From: Comamonas flocculans
Lineage (GTDB): Bacteria; Pseudomonadota; Gammaproteobacteria; Burkholderiales; Burkholderiaceae_C
Direction: 5' to 3'
DNA length: 64,000 bases
NCBI RefSeq assembly: GCF_007954405.1
Contig: NZ_CP042344.1
Coordinates: 3,038,001 to 3,102,000, forward strand
Shown here: positions 53,626 to 60,800 of the stretch, piece by piece
Position numbering within the stretch: the first letter of the stretch is position 1
Layout: each line of letters opens with the position of its first letter
Notes under the pieces: model-generated
Databases searched by the model: none
What the model saw: only the letters and a program-made list of their open reading frames with translations
What the model was told of the DNA's origin: nothing
Made by a program: the position numbers and the translations under genes

Positions 53626-53740
53626 ATGTTTGAAAAAATCCTGATCGCCAACCGTGGCGAAAACGGCCACGGAGTGGGCGTTTCTGCACATTGCATGGCA
53701 CGCGAAGCGGGCACGGGCGATTTCGCCACGGAGAACCACC

Positions 53741-53748
<8 letters not shown>
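53626..53748 (+). pseudogene. Duplicated, truncated pccA start (40 codons)
   Basis: The first copy of the pccA start opens with MFEKILIANRGE, then runs into unrelated residues (NGHGVGVSAHCMAREAGTGD..) and stops at TGA 53746-53748, which overlaps codons 2-3 of the true pccA. Its ribosome site is the same as that of pccA, so it is probably translated. Termination 7 nt inside pccA could permit reinitiation and act as a leader ORF. Confidence 0.7.
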
Positions 53749-55789
<2,041 letters not shown>

Positions 55790-55831
55790 GTGAAGGCTGC
55801 AGGTGGCGCGAGGACGAAGGCAGGCATAAAA

Positions 55832-55847
55832 TATAACGAACGTTATA
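55832..55847. promoter_or_regulatory. Operator-like palindrome before the AbrB/Doc pair
   Basis: TATAACG-AA-CGTTATA, perfect 7-bp arms, in the only AT-rich stretch of the 78-bp gap between pccA and the antitoxin. Overlapping TATAAC could be a -10. AbrB/MazE antitoxins bind such palindromes for autoregulation. Confidence 0.6.
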
Positions 55848-55867
55848 ACTTGCTTGCGAGGTCTCTC

Positions 55868-56101
55868 ATGTCCACCGCCACCGCCTTGAAAGTCACCCAG
55901 ATCGGCAACTCCATGGGCGTCATCCTGCCCAAGGAGGTGCTGGCGCGCCTGAAGGTGCAAAAGGGCGATTCGCTCTTTCTGAGCGACTTGCCCGACGGGG
56001 TGGCCTTGCGCCCCTATGACGAGGAGTTTGCCGAGCAGATGGCCATGGCGCGCGAGATCATGCGCAAGCGGCGCAACGTTCTGCGTGAGCTGGCCAAATG
56101 A
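55868..56101 (+). CDS. AbrB/MazE-type antitoxin
   Basis: A 77-residue protein. Residues 8-48 match the swapped-hairpin AbrB DNA-binding domain (KVTQIGNSMGVILPKEVLARLKVQKGD). A short helical, basic C-terminus (REIMRKRRNVLRELAK) follows. Start 55868 opens on the domain; the frame from 55790 reads through the operator. The stop overlaps the doc-like ATG by 4 bp (ATGA). AbrB rather than Phd as antitoxin for Doc is a recognised alternative pairing. Confidence 0.87.
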   Translation: MSTATALKVTQIGNSMGVILPKEVLARLKVQKGDSLFLSDLPDGVALRPYDEEFAEQMAMAREIMRKRRNVLRELAK

Positions 56102-56496
56102 AGGCGGCCAATGCCTCCTGGCGCTGGGTCACGCACGAAGTGTTGATGGCCGTGCATGAGGAGCAGTTGGCTGAACATGGCGGCGCGGCCGGTCTGCGCG
56201 ACGCCGGTCTGTTCGAGTCCGCTCTGACACGCCCCCGCAATCTCGCGCTGTACGGCGAACCCGATGCCGCCGATTTGGCCGCGGCCTACGCCTACGGCCT
56301 GGTGCGCAACCATCCTTTCATAGATGGCAACAAGCGCACCGCCTACGTTTGCGCTGAACTGTTTTTGGTGGCCAACGGCTACGACATGACGGCCAGCGAC
56401 GAAAGTGCAACGCTGCAGACCCTCGCCCTGGCTGCCGGCGATCTGCAAGAGGCCGACTTCGCCGCCTGGCTGCGCCAATACCTGCTGCCGCGTTGA
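56098..56496 (+). CDS. Doc-family (Fic fold) toxin
   Basis: A 132-residue Doc protein. The active-site loop HPFIDGNKRTAYV (residues 72-84) matches HxF-x-[DN]-[AG]-NKR; the N-terminal helix region VLMAVHEEQLAEHGGAAGLRDAGLFESAL is typical. P1 Doc phosphorylates EF-Tu and stops translation. The inhibitory motif normally provided by the antitoxin is not in this chain. Convergent with the ubiquitin gene, whose stop lies 30 bp away. Confidence 0.9.
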   Translation: MKAANASWRWVTHEVLMAVHEEQLAEHGGAAGLRDAGLFESALTRPRNLALYGEPDAADLAAAYAYGLVRNHPFIDGNKRTAYVCAELFLVANGYDMTASDESATLQTLALAAGDLQEADFAAWLRQYLLPR

Positions 56497-56525
56497 TGGC
56501 AAAGAGGCTTTGTCGCGGCGGTACG

Positions 56526-56861
56526 TCAGCGGGGCGCGCGCCTGCTGCGCAGCCGGATGAGTGCCAATGCCGCGATGCCGCTGGCTGTGGCCATCAGCCC
56601 CCAGGTCGAAAGCGAGGGAATGGGCGCGATCCCCGCAGCGTGCAGGCGCAGCACCAGATGCAAGGTGGACTCTTTTTGAATGTTGTAGTCGGACAGCGTG
56701 CGGCCGTCTTCGAGCTGCTTGCCGGCAAAAATCAGGAGTTGCTGGTCCACGGGTATGCCTGTCTTGTCCAGTATCCGGTATTTGACCTGCTGGATGCTGT
56801 CGCTGGAAGAGACTTCGAGGGTGATCGTCTGGCCGGTCAGGGTTTTGATGAATATTTGCAT
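56526..56861 (-). CDS. Ubiquitin fused to an IPTL-CTERM-like sorting/anchor tail
   Basis: A 111-residue protein. Residues 1-73 are ubiquitin. Compared with human ubiquitin, I count 13 differences: V5I, K11Q, E18S, P19S, T22S, E24Q, N25Q, A28Y, K29R, Q31L, E34T, P38V, R42L. Residues 43-73 are identical. Kept are Lys6, 27, 33, 48 and 63 and the hydrophobic patch Leu8, Ile44, His68, Val70. The conjugating RGG end is replaced by HAAG, followed by [11 protein letters not shown], a hydrophobic helix ([12 protein letters not shown]) and RLRSRRAPR. This matches the IPTL-CTERM sorting-signal pattern: Pro-rich motif, TM helix, basic end. The frame has a TAG 14 codons upstream of ATG 56861 and no other start, so no signal peptide. 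GC is about 54% in the ubiquitin part and about 70% in the tail. No E1/E2/E3 gene is near. Confidence 0.93.
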
Positions 56862-56967
56862 GTTGGGTGTCTGCCGCTGGACGGCGCGTGCAGGAACTGG
56901 CTACACGCTCGCCATCGTGCTCGCAGGGGTGCTGCAGAAGGCCCGCTGACGCGTGGCGTCACCCGGG

Positions 56968-56997
56968 ATTATGGGTGGGGCCGCTCTGGCCTGACAA
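56968..56997 (-). promoter_or_regulatory. Candidate promoter of the ubiquitin gene
   Basis: Minus strand: TTGTCA (56997-56992), 18-bp spacer, CATAAT (56973-56968). This would give a leader of about 100 nt. The -35 box touches the first base of the divergent DUF167 start codon. No strong Shine-Dalgarno precedes the ubiquitin ATG (GGCAGACACCCAAC). Confidence 0.5.
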
Positions 56998-57323
56998 TGG
57001 CGGGCATGCCGCCCACGCTCATGCTGTCCATCCACGCCACGCCGGGTGCGCGGCGCACCGGGCCGGCCGGCGCCCATGGTGCGGCGCTGCGCGTGTGCCT
57101 GGCCGCGCCGCCGGTCGATGGCAAGGCCAATGCCGCCTTGCTGGCCTGGGCGGCGCAGGTCTTCGGTCTGCCCCGCGCCCGGGTGCGGCTGCTGGCCGGC
57201 GCGGCGGCGCGGCGCAAGCGCCTGGGGCTGGAATTTGCGTCGGAGCAGGAACTGGCCCGCGCGCGCGAGCAGGTGGCAGTCTGGATGCGCCAGGGTGGCG
57301 CCGATGAAATTTTCAAGGAGTAA
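56997..57323 (+). CDS. DUF167 (YggU-family) protein
   Basis: A 108-residue protein of the YggU/DUF167 fold: [41 protein letters not shown] and [17 protein letters not shown], the core sequence of the family. Molecular function is not established. An alternative ATG is at 57006. It is 5 bp before the VOC gene, so the two are likely co-transcribed, and divergent from the ubiquitin gene. Confidence 0.88.
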
Positions 57324-57328
57324 AGCGC

Positions 57329-57793
57329 ATGGCAAGTCGTCCATTCAAGGTTCTCGGCATACAGCAGGTCGCTATCGGCGGCACTGACAAAGCGGCCCTG
57401 CGCCGCTTGTGGGTGGACATGTTCGGCCTCACGCCCACCGGCAGCTTCCAGAGCGAGCGCGAGAACGTGGATGAAGACATTCTGGTCATGGGCAGCGGCG
57501 CCTCCAGGGTGGAGGTCGACCTGATGCAGCCGCTGGACATCGACAAGAAGCCGGCGGTGCATATTCCGCCGCTGAACCACATCGGCCTGTGGATAGACGA
57601 CCTGCCCGGGGCGGTCGACTGGCTGACGGCGCAGGGCGTGCGCTTTGCGCCGGGCGGGATACGCAAGGGCGCTTCGGGCCATGACGTGTGCTTCATGCAC
57701 CCCAGGGGCAATGAGCAGTTTCCGATCAGCGGCGAAGGCGTGCTGCTGGAGCTGGTGCAGGCCCCGCCCGAGGTGATTGCCGCCCTGGGCTGA
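57329..57793 (+). CDS. VOC-family protein, candidate methylmalonyl-CoA epimerase
   Basis: A 154-residue protein with two beta-alpha-beta-beta-beta modules of the vicinal oxygen chelate fold (glyoxalase I, methylmalonyl-CoA epimerase). The opening [13 protein letters not shown], the central [10 protein letters not shown] with His84 and the closing VLLELVQAP with Glu141 line up with epimerase metal ligands. The first ligand, His in known epimerases, is Gln here (residue 12 or 13). Proximity (1.5 kb) to propionyl-CoA carboxylase and mutase genes, which need an epimerase between them, supports the assignment. Lactoylglutathione lyase or another VOC activity remains possible. AAGGAGTAAAGCGC precedes the ATG. 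Confidence 0.7.
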
Positions 57794-57806
57794 GGCAGCG
57801 GCGGCT

Positions 57807-60800
57807 TCAGCGAAAGTCGCGGCTCCTGCCGCTGTGCCCGGCAAGCCGGCCGAGCAGCGGCGTGAGATCGGCCAGTTGCCCCGCCACCAGATGGCAGGCG
57901 GCGCTGCCCGCGCCGGGTTCCGCTGCGCACGTGCGCTGCCAGCGGCCCTGCACCGCGAGCAAGCGAGCGTGCAGCAGCACTTGGCGCTGGCGCTCGCGCA
58001 GTTCGGCCCCGATGATGACGTTCACGGTGCCGGTTTCATCTTCCAGCGTGACGAAGACCGTGCCGCCCGCGGTCTGCGGGCGCTGGCGCACGGTGACCAG
58101 GCCGCAGGCGCGCACGCTGCGCCCGCTCGGCAGGGCCAGCAGGGCGGCGGCGCTGCTCAGGCGCCGGCGCGCCAGGTGCGGGCGCAGCAGCGCCAGCGGA
58201 TGGCGGCGCAGCGTCAGGCCCAGGGCGGCGTAGTCGTGGATGATTTCCTCGGCCTCGGCGGCCGCGGGCAGGCACAGCCGCGCCTCACCCACCGGCGCGT
58301 CCTGCAGCAGCCGGGGGGTGCCGTGCAGCGCGGCGGCCTCCCAGGTCTGCTGGCGCCGGTGGCCTGCGAGACTGGCCAGCGCATCGGCCGCGGCCAGGGC
58401 GTTGAGTTCGCCGCGGCCAAGCCGCGCGCGCAGCGCTAGGTCTTCGGTGCCGGCCAGGGGCCGCAGGGTGCGCGCCTGCACGATGCGCGCGCCGGCCTCG
58501 CGCCCCAGCGAGCCGACCAGGCGCAGCCCCAGGCGCACCGCGGGGCGAAGGTCGGCATCAGCTTTGTTTTCGATAGCTGAAAGCGCTTTACCAGCAAGCG
58601 TTTGTGGCCGATTTGGCTTGCAATCCTGCACCACCGCCTGCGGGTACTGCAGACGGCAGTCCCAGTCGCTTTGCGTGACGTCCACCGGCAGCACTGCGAC
58701 GCCGTGGCGGCGCGCGTCCTGGATGAGTTGCGAGGGGGTGTAAAAGCCCATGGGCTGGGCGTTGAGCAGCGCGGCCAGGAAGGCCTCGGGCTCGTGGCAC
58801 TTGAGCCAGGCGCTTTCGTAGGCCAGCAGCGCAAAGCTCCAGGCATGGCTTTCCGGGAATCCGTATTCGCCAAAGCCCTTGATCTGCTCGAAGATGCGCC
58901 GCGCGAAGTCCGGCCGGTAGCCGCCCGCCACCATGCCGCCGATGAAGCGCGCCTCGAACTTGTGCACGTTGCCGCCGTACTTGAAGGTGGCCATGCCGCG
59001 GCGCAGCGCGTCGGCCTCGCCGGGTGAAAAACCCGCGGCGAGGATAGCCATCTGCATCACCTGCTCCTGGAAGATGGGCACGCCCAGGGTGCGCGCCAGC
59101 GCCTGCATCAGGCGCGGCGGCTGCGCAGGGTCTTCCAGGGCCGAGCGTTCGTAGCGCGTGGCCCGGCCCGCCGCGCGGCGGCTGCGCGCCAGCAGGTAGG
59201 GGCGCACCATGCCGCCCGCCACTGGACCGGGACGCACCAAGGCCACCTGCACCACCAGATCGTAGAAGGTGGCGGGTTTCAGGCGCGGCAGCATGGCCAT
59301 CTGCGCGCGGCTTTCGATCTGGAACACGCCCACGGTGTCGGCGCGGCGCGCCATGGCGTAGGTGGCGGGGTCGTCCGGCGGGATGTCGTAGCGCGTGAAG
59401 GGCGCGCCCCGGCGCTCACTGACCAGCTCCAGCGTGCGGCGGATCGCGCTGAGCATGCCCAGCGCCAGCACGTCCACCTTCATCAGGCCCAGGTCTTTGA
59501 TGTCGTTCTTGTCCCACTGGATGACGGAGCGCCCCGCCATGGCGGCGTTTTCCACCGGCACCAGGCAGGTGAGCGGGGTCTGCGTGAGCACGAAGCCGCC
59601 CACGTGCTGACTCAGGTGGCGCGGCAGGCCCAAAAGCTGGCGCGCCAGCAGGGGCCAGAGCAGGGCGCTGCGCTCGCTCAGCGGCTGGCCGCCGGTGCGC
59701 ACCGCCAGCGCCTGCAGGTGGGCGGCGCCGGGCGCTTCATGAAAGCCCGGGTGGTCCTGGGCATAGGCGTCGATCAGGGTCTGGGGCAGGCCGAGCGCCG
59801 CGCCCACCGCGCGGATGGCGCTGCGCGGGCGCCAGGTGATGACGGCCGCGGCCAGCGCGGCGCGTTCGCGCCCGTACTTGGCGTAGAGGTACTGGATGAC
59901 CTCCTCGCGCCGCTCATGCTCGAAGTCCACGTCGATGTCGGGCGGCTCGTGGCGCCGCTCGCGGCTGATGAAGCGCTCCAGCAGCGGGTGCGAATGCTCG
60001 GGGTTGGCCGCGGTGATGCCCAGGCACCAGCAGACCACCGAGTTGGCCGCCGAGCCGCGCCCCTGGCACAGGATGCCCCGCTCGCGCGCAAAACACACGA
60101 TGTCGTGCACCGTGAGGAAGAACATCTCGTAGCGGCAGGCGGCGATCAGCCTGAGCTCCTTGACCAGGTAGCGCCTGATTTGCACGGGCGTGCCGCGCGG
60201 GTAGCGCTCGGCCATGCCCTGCAGCACGCGCTGGCGCAGCGCCTGGCTGGGCGTGAGGCCGGCGGGCAGGCTCTCCTGCGGGTAGTCGTAGTGGATCTGC
60301 GCCAGGTCAAAGCCGCTGCAGCGCTGCACCACCTGCAGCGTGGCCTGCAGGAGCGCGCGCGGGTAGATGCGCGAGAGCAGCAGGCGGTGGCGCAGGTGGC
60401 GCTCGGCGCTGGGCTGAAGCTGCAGGCCGCAGTCGGCCACGGGGCGGTTCAGGCGCGTGGCGGTCAGCACGTCCTGCAGCGGCTTGCGCGAGCGCCGGTG
60501 CATGCAGACCCCGCCCGCGGCCACCAGCGGCAGGCCGTGGCGAGCGCCCAGCAGGCGCAGCGTAGCCAGCCACAGCGGGTCTTCAGGGCTGCGCAGCAGC
60601 TCCACGGCCAGCCACAGATGTTCAGGGTCAAATCTGGCTGTAACGCTTGCCAGGCAAGCGCTGACAGCTTCTTCATCGATAGCGCTGTTGGTGGGTGGTT
60701 CGGGCACCCAGAGGATTTCGCAGCCGGCCAGCAGGCTGAAGCTACCGTGCTGCCAGTCGATTTGGTAGCTGCCCTTGGCGGCGCCCCCGGTGCGCGCGGC

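Follow-up and report, generated by a model that had tools for sequence, protein, structure and literature searches.

The window analysed here, a 64,000-nt stretch of the Comamonas flocculans chromosome, contains a short gene on the minus strand in which a ubiquitin is followed by a tail resembling the IPTL-CTERM sorting signals. A preliminary description had placed the open reading frame correctly, leaving the strand unsaid. The gene lies between a Fic/Doc-family gene, itself preceded by a MazE-type antitoxin gene, and a DUF167/YggU gene (Table 1).

Table 1. Features of the ubiquitin locus, in window coordinates.
Feature	Position	Strand	Evidence
Antitoxin gene (MazE type) preceding Fic/Doc	55868..56101	+	PF04014, 31.9 bits
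Fic/Doc-family gene, left neighbour	56098..56496	+	PF02661, 68.2 bits; aligned in sister genome
489-nt stretch opposite a 119-nt spacer of the closest sister genome (empty site)	56497..56985		alignment
Gene for ubiquitin with IPTL-like tail	56526..56861	-	ORF of 111 aa beginning at ubiquitin Met1; ATG at 56861, stop ends at 56526
Predicted C-terminal helix, residues 86-107	56541..56606	-	AlphaFold2 and charges; predicted N-out/C-in
IPTL-CTERM-like stretch, residues 79-105 (hydrophobic helix and first arginines included)	56547..56627	-	PF18203, 19.2 bits (cut-off 20.8)
Ubiquitin domain, residues 1-73	56643..56861	-	60/73 identical to human ubiquitin; PF00240; AlphaFold2 fold
Promoter-like site TTGTCA-18-CATAAT	56968..56997	-	upstream of the ubiquitin gene; consensus match only
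DUF167/YggU gene, divergent right neighbour	57006..57323	+	PF02594, 72.2 bits

The ubiquitin gene is present in one of nine genomes of the genus. The closest sister genome (G005) aligns with positions 53727-56496 of the window at 91% and with 56986-58000 at 93%, the two pieces being 119 nt apart. Two other genomes (G006 and G004) gave no match to the Fic/Doc pair; in both, the YggU-side match is separated by 10-11 nt from the biotin carboxylase gene, whose 3' end is at window 55787. The interval corresponding to window 55787-57008 thus holds 10-11 nt in two genomes, the Fic/Doc pair in another, and the pair plus ubiquitin here. Stepwise addition of small genes between biotin carboxylase and YggU thus seems to have taken place in this genus. 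The ubiquitin gene is a single-gene gain on a chromosome assembled in one contig, and not contamination.

No transposase was found among the five window neighbours scanned, and the 10-nt inverted repeat that flanks the ubiquitin gene (56524-56533 and 56942-56951) is short enough to occur by chance. In another family genome (G026), an integrase-core (rve) transposase gene (L097:9086-9961, minus strand) lies about 1.5 kb from a related ubiquitin gene, L088, and is a possible vehicle there. The promoter-like site upstream of the window gene matches the consensus at 10 of 12 positions, with 0.1 such sites expected in shuffled sequences; inspection by eye showed no clear ribosome-binding site. No neighbour of the immunity or E1/E2/DUB kind recurred in six loci of the family; this covers ORFs called heuristically in the middle of each locus and a Pfam scan of eight neighbouring ORFs, two of which had no family at all. 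In one genome (G154), the ubiquitin gene adjoins a gene for a 1029-aa DUF11/SpaA-like protein (L096:7852-10941, minus strand) that itself ends in a VP motif, a hydrophobic stretch and a basic tail.

The ubiquitin part is close to the eukaryotic protein. Its identity to human ubiquitin amounts to 82% over residues 1-73 and is complete over residues 43-73 (31/31). The protein is a member of the Pfam ubiquitin family by score (97.1 bits, E 5e-28, cut-off 25.4). The structure prediction that had been proposed as a check gives a ubiquitin fold, with block pLDDT values of 93-96 over residues 1-70, and a separate helix; the best match of the model in the PDB is a ubiquitin, with an rmsd of 0.7 Å over 75 columns. 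The preliminary description was thus right to see a near-authentic ubiquitin encoded by a bacterial chromosome. Its emphasis on the high identity as something exceptional is not borne out, since one exported bacterial ubiquitin (L009) shares 71 of 72 residues with the human protein.

Lysines 6, 27, 33, 48 and 63 are retained, while position 11 is Gln and position 29 Arg. Arg42 is replaced by Leu, and positions 74-76 read HAA where ubiquitin has RGG, so that the loss of the RGG end reported earlier is real. A conjugating ubiquitin carries a C-terminal RGG, either free or exposed by processing, and the window protein has neither. Genes for E1, E2 or DUB enzymes were not seen beside it, in the ORF list or in the Pfam scans of the neighbours. 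The E2 family PF00179 was found in none of ten ubiquitin-positive genomes and likewise nowhere in the control set.

After HAA come the residues PIPSLSTWG and a hydrophobic helix, and the C-terminal end is rich in arginine. These are the parts of an IPTL-CTERM signal, and to that extent the tail is what it was first taken for; the curated models do not follow. PF18203 falls just short of its cut-off, TIGR04174 gives no report at E values up to 10, and the weak NCBIfam report for midcut_by_XrtH, the only one from that collection, scores 18.6 against a cut-off of 45. The tail is therefore IPTL-like by its motif and not a member by curated score, although it may well work like one. A search with residues 64-111 found the query itself alone among 19 candidates.

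Five relatives share with the window protein a further trait, the lack of a signal peptide: four come from other genomes of the family (L087, L088, L093 and L094) and one from a Nitrosomonas MAG (L008). PF18203 was reported for none of the five. L087, the closest of them to the window protein, passes TIGR04174 (21.1 against 20.5 bits) and L093 passes a MYXO-CTERM model (17.8 against 15.85), whereas L088, L094 and L008 exceed the cut-off of no sorting-tail model. Four ubiquitin-IPTL fusions with a signal peptide, in contrast, clearly pass TIGR04174 (L092, 25.7 bits; L002, 30.1; L003, 33.6; L039, 30.6). Compared with these, the tails of the signal-less proteins are weaker forms of the IPTL tag, which tells against sorting. 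A proline motif precedes the hydrophobic stretch in all six signal-less proteins, in the form [IV]P[ST]L in five and VPSA in L008.

The charges around the hydrophobic stretch point in one direction. In the window protein, the N-side flank of the helix has a charge of 0 and the C-side flank +4; in the six signal-less ubiquitins together, the ubiquitin-side flank ranges from -2 to +1 and the other side from +3 to +6. The positive-inside rule is used to infer membrane orientation from such flank charges. All six tails fit it with the ubiquitin part favoured outside.

How the protein would get there is less obvious. No signal peptide was seen by eye in three frames over 289 nt upstream of the window gene; an in-frame stop lies 13 codons before Met1, and no start codon intervenes. 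The same inspection over 180 nt upstream of the five signal-less relatives found none, and in L094, where the frame is open further upstream, there is no ATG, GTG or TTG in it. An N-terminal signal peptide is usual for IPTL-CTERM proteins, and two of the three in the window genome begin with a signal-peptide-like stretch by eye. The third, a short gene (L085:1144-1611, plus strand; 25.4 bits), has such a start, again by eye, in another frame and is possibly frameshifted. Since the window protein lacks what the clear IPTL proteins of the same genome have, its simple export cannot be taken as given. Nor does it have the cleaved signal peptide before Met1 by which a toxin like BfUbb, the secreted ubiquitin of Bacteroides fragilis, would be recognised. 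The exported or membrane-displayed ubiquitin of the preliminary description therefore stands in part: it has the IPTL-like tail and, in the same genome, an exosortase H on its side, while the absence of a signal peptide had been overlooked.

A low content of charged residues was considered as a sign of translocation by the tail. Signal-less ubiquitins have fewer charged residues (p 0.003, six against 71 rows), a comparison in which nine of the 80 listed loci were left out and the set had been gathered by conserved words. With five signal-less and eight exported ubiquitins found by HMM, p was 0.06, and the idea was set aside.

That the tail still matters is best supported by its co-occurrence with exosortase H (XrtH, TIGR04177), although this is a correlation and is weakened by shared ancestry. 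An exosortase-type partner, which had been suggested from the tail, does exist in the window genome: XrtH scores 234.2-235.7 bits against a cut-off of 86, and its gene directly follows that of a long, clear IPTL-CTERM protein (51.5 bits). The genome also encodes XrtD. In an evenly drawn sample of 399 family genomes, ten had a match to PF00240. Five of these encode a signal-less ubiquitin with a tail (the window, L087, L088, L093 and L094), three a ubiquitin with signal peptide and tail (L089, L090 and L092) and one a ubiquitin with a signal peptide and no tail (L091); L095, a weak match inside a long repeat protein, was excluded from the tailed set. A tailed ubiquitin is thus found in eight of the 399 genomes, that of the window included.

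XrtH exceeded its cut-off in 52 of the 399 genomes, in nine of the ten positive for PF00240 and in all eight whose ubiquitin is tailed. The tenth, G162, which lacks XrtH, encodes an untailed ubiquitin with a signal peptide. Fisher's test gives p values of 5e-8 for the eight tailed-ubiquitin genomes and 3e-5 for the five signal-less ones, both too small because the genomes are related. The fairer comparison is at the level of genera, where all six with tailed ubiquitins are within the 22 of 141 that have XrtH (p 8e-6).

Exported bacterial ubiquitins proved to be numerous. A search with the full protein was swamped by eukaryotic polyubiquitins, while a scan of representative genomes yielded at least 114 confirmed ubiquitin loci, 80 of which were analysed. 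By a crude rule, a signal-peptide-like stretch precedes Met1 in 73 of these 80, with small residues at -1 and -3 in 67, and 14 have a hydrophobic tail. Many of the relatives are on MAG contigs, some of which may be misbinned; others come from long contigs of named isolates (for example Denitrificimonas caeni, Dyella, Cocleimonas flava, Sphingomonas canadensis and Flavobacterium species). By record title, they stem from free-living as well as gut bacteria. The PF00240 model exceeded its cut-off in two of 369 genomes of the class and four of 399 of the order, the window's own genome being counted in each; the three new loci of the order have signal-peptide-like starts by eye, and two of them a hydrophobic tail. 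Such starts were seen by eye in all of L089, L090, L092, L131 and L132, the other tailed relatives in family and order. Three plasmid records had partial matches (Ruminococcus albus and Pseudoalteromonas), and no phage was matched. One of the plasmid matches, on the Ruminococcus albus 7 plasmid (NC_014824.1:388174-388422), is annotated as a 'ubiquitin family protein' and is 66% identical over 82 residues.

Other exported ubiquitins appear, by eye, to carry other kinds of C-terminal region. Six (L013, L016, L023, L026, L057 and L130) have long regions like outer-membrane beta-barrels, as in autotransporters. In three from Ruminococcus/Clostridiales MAGs (L021, L024 and L025), signal peptide and ubiquitin are joined to a dockerin-like part, which suggests attachment to cellulosome-type scaffolds. 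Four further ubiquitin proteins (L040, L044, L046 and L078) end like sortase-type anchors, in a motif resembling PQTGD/PKTGN that is followed by a hydrophobic stretch and then by basic residues.

The joining end of ubiquitin is rarely kept. Among the matches listed, RGG is found in six of 84 distinct bacterial rows, made up of the 80 listed loci minus six (L006, L017, L018, L031, L061 and L077) plus the window and nine HMM-found loci; of those dropped, L006, L017 and L018 show RGG too. The I44 patch is not specially conserved, at 0.78 against 0.75 for other surface positions in 42 divergent rows. Gln2 and Phe4 form an exposed patch on ubiquitin and hardly vary in the 84 rows (0.99 and 1.00); the listed rows had been gathered by words that include these two residues, and the eight exported rows found by HMM keep both as well.

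A tree of 51 rows and 74 columns was built from 31 of the 80 listed loci, ten HMM-found loci including the window, and ten eukaryotic sequences out of twelve. Three of the eukaryotic rows are visibly odd partial copies and 27 of 48 inner forks are open, so that local groupings alone were used. The window protein and L087 are nearest neighbours (98/79) and fall together with L088 and L002 (97/71), although none of the forks around it reaches the star of the tool. The eukaryotic rows are scattered over the tree. The signal-less rows are scattered likewise and, with L093 with L094 and L008 lying apart, do not make one group (three changes); the signal-less layout may thus have several origins. 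The window protein is 85% identical to L087 over 74 columns, compared with 82% over 73 for human ubiquitin. Across six pairs of genes dN ranges over 0.04-0.19; dS reaches 1.3-1.4 in two of them (dN/dS of 0.042/1.39 for L002 and L087, and 0.16/1.34 for L002 and the window) and has no value in the other four, which were taken as saturated.

The gene is real, intact and bacterial. The function that fits it best is that of an outward-facing, XrtH-handled, non-conjugating ubiquitin that binds targets of neighbouring cells in the manner of BfUbb, to which we give a probability of about 0.42. The hydrophobic tail would insert the protein into the inner membrane with the ubiquitin facing out, as the flank charges predict. 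Exosortase H of the same genome would then process the tail, as co-occurrence and motif suggest. By analogy with BfUbb, the ubiquitin might act on neighbouring cells as a binding protein, without tagging any protein. The main doubts about this outward, XrtH-linked reading come from the lack of a signal peptide and from a tail that scores below threshold. It is tempting to speculate further that the protein is a surface weapon: having dropped its signal peptide, it would be exported as a folded ubiquitin by the C-terminal tag alone and would disable neighbours on contact. It would then belong, as one branch, to a large family of exported bacterial ubiquitins, most of it undescribed, in which the surface anchors are exchangeable. 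In this full form the proposal is rather doubtful.

The same two doubts would be natural if the protein never left the cell. Bacterial tail-anchored proteins ending in a helix and arginines exist, and a C-terminal helix might simply hold the ubiquitin on the cytoplasmic side with no involvement of XrtH; signal peptides are absent in all six proteins of this layout, and most of their tails are under the IPTL cut-offs. Yet the charge balance favours the opposite orientation in all six, XrtH accompanies the signal-less ubiquitin in five of five family genomes, and L089, L090, L092, L131 and L132 combine a tail with a signal-peptide-like start. A cytoplasmic anchor is, in our view, doubtful.

Outward display might also be aimed at eukaryotes, with the ubiquitin serving as a decoy or suicide substrate for protists or other eukaryotic cells. 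Complete identity to the human protein over residues 43-73 agrees with this, as does the behaviour of recombinant BfUbb, which is reported to bind human E1 and inhibit ubiquitination in vitro (PMC3352274). However, the end required for E1 chemistry is replaced by HAA and the tail, no delivery system was noticed by eye beside the gene, and the relatives live freely as well as in guts, all of which makes a eukaryotic target unlikely.

If, on the other hand, a ubiquitin-IPTL gene with a signal peptide had been acquired and had lost that peptide, the present gene could be a functionless remnant drifting towards decay. The missing signal peptide, the sub-threshold tail, the lack of a clear ribosome-binding site and the presence in one genome of nine are what such a remnant would look like. 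Against this, the frame is open across ubiquitin and tail, residues 43-73 are identical to those of human ubiquitin, the layout recurs in a Nitrosomonas MAG and in four further genomes of the family, and dN is low where dS is high. Decay is thus an improbable account.

Eukaryotic contamination or a chimeric assembly, named earlier as what would overturn the finding, could be suspected from the closeness to a eukaryotic protein and a gene G+C of 0.60 in a window of 0.69, but is ruled out for practical purposes by an assembly in one 3.33-Mb contig (completeness 100, contamination 0.25), flanks syntenic with the sister genome, a protein cluster of two sequences on two contigs, a bacterial-type tail, bacterial nearest rows in the tree, and a third-position GC of 0.77-0.82 beside 0.77-0.89 in the neighbours.

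Ubiquitin is emblematic of the eukaryotic cell, with the secreted copy of one gut bacterium as its well-known exception. The window protein adds a second design of bacterial ubiquitin, with a sorting-type tail and a statistical tie to one sorting enzyme. Its many exported relatives, in several phyla, keep the body of ubiquitin while the joining end is mostly gone. If the outward reading is true, bacteria would make wide use of ubiquitin as an extracellular binding module, and the branch without signal peptides would make it testable how a lone C-terminal tag exports a fast-folding domain.

Several known systems invite comparison. The conjugating ubiquitin-like systems of bacteria, of the Bil/Bub type, are operons with E1, E2 and DUB genes. 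They share with the window protein the ubiquitin fold in a bacterium, whereas no such genes were seen beside the window gene in the ORF list or the Pfam scans, and its product has no free Gly-Gly. With IPTL-CTERM/XrtH sorting the protein shares the proline-serine-leucine motif, the hydrophobic helix, the arginine end and an XrtH in the genome; it differs in a tail under the curated cut-offs and in the lack of a signal peptide. Close in layout are L002 (a Brevundimonas MAG), which is also near the window protein in the tree, L003 (Denitrificimonas caeni), L039 (Cocleimonas flava) and L092. In these four the IPTL tail follows almost directly after the ubiquitin, as in the window protein; unlike it, they have a signal-peptide-like stretch immediately before Met1 and TIGR04174 scores of 25.7-33.6 bits. 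Among the matches listed from open-licence literature on IPTL-CTERM, on PEP-CTERM/exosortase and ubiquitin, on XrtH and on bacterial or secreted ubiquitin, no paper on a ubiquitin with a sorting tail was seen.

The closest described protein is BfUbb, the product of ubb of Bacteroides fragilis. It is a secreted protein without the terminal glycine and is inhibitory to some strains of B. fragilis itself (PMC5705921); it occurs in some strains only and, by the authors' data, needs no immunity protein (PMC3352274; PMC5705921). Both BfUbb and the window protein are near-eukaryotic ubiquitins in a bacterium, confined to some strains, that have lost the Gly-Gly end. They differ in their identity to human ubiquitin, 82% over 73 residues for the window protein and a reported 63% for BfUbb (PMC3352274), and in architecture: BfUbb is untailed and begins with a signal peptide that is cleaved off, while the window protein is signal-less with a C-terminal hydrophobic tail. 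The earlier view that no system of this kind had been described was therefore too strong, given that a secreted, non-conjugating ubiquitin is on record in these papers and that, among the matches listed, many ubiquitins are exported and at least three (L002, L003 and L039) have IPTL tails over the cut-offs. The window protein is a further variant of the exported bacterial ubiquitins, a kind already known.
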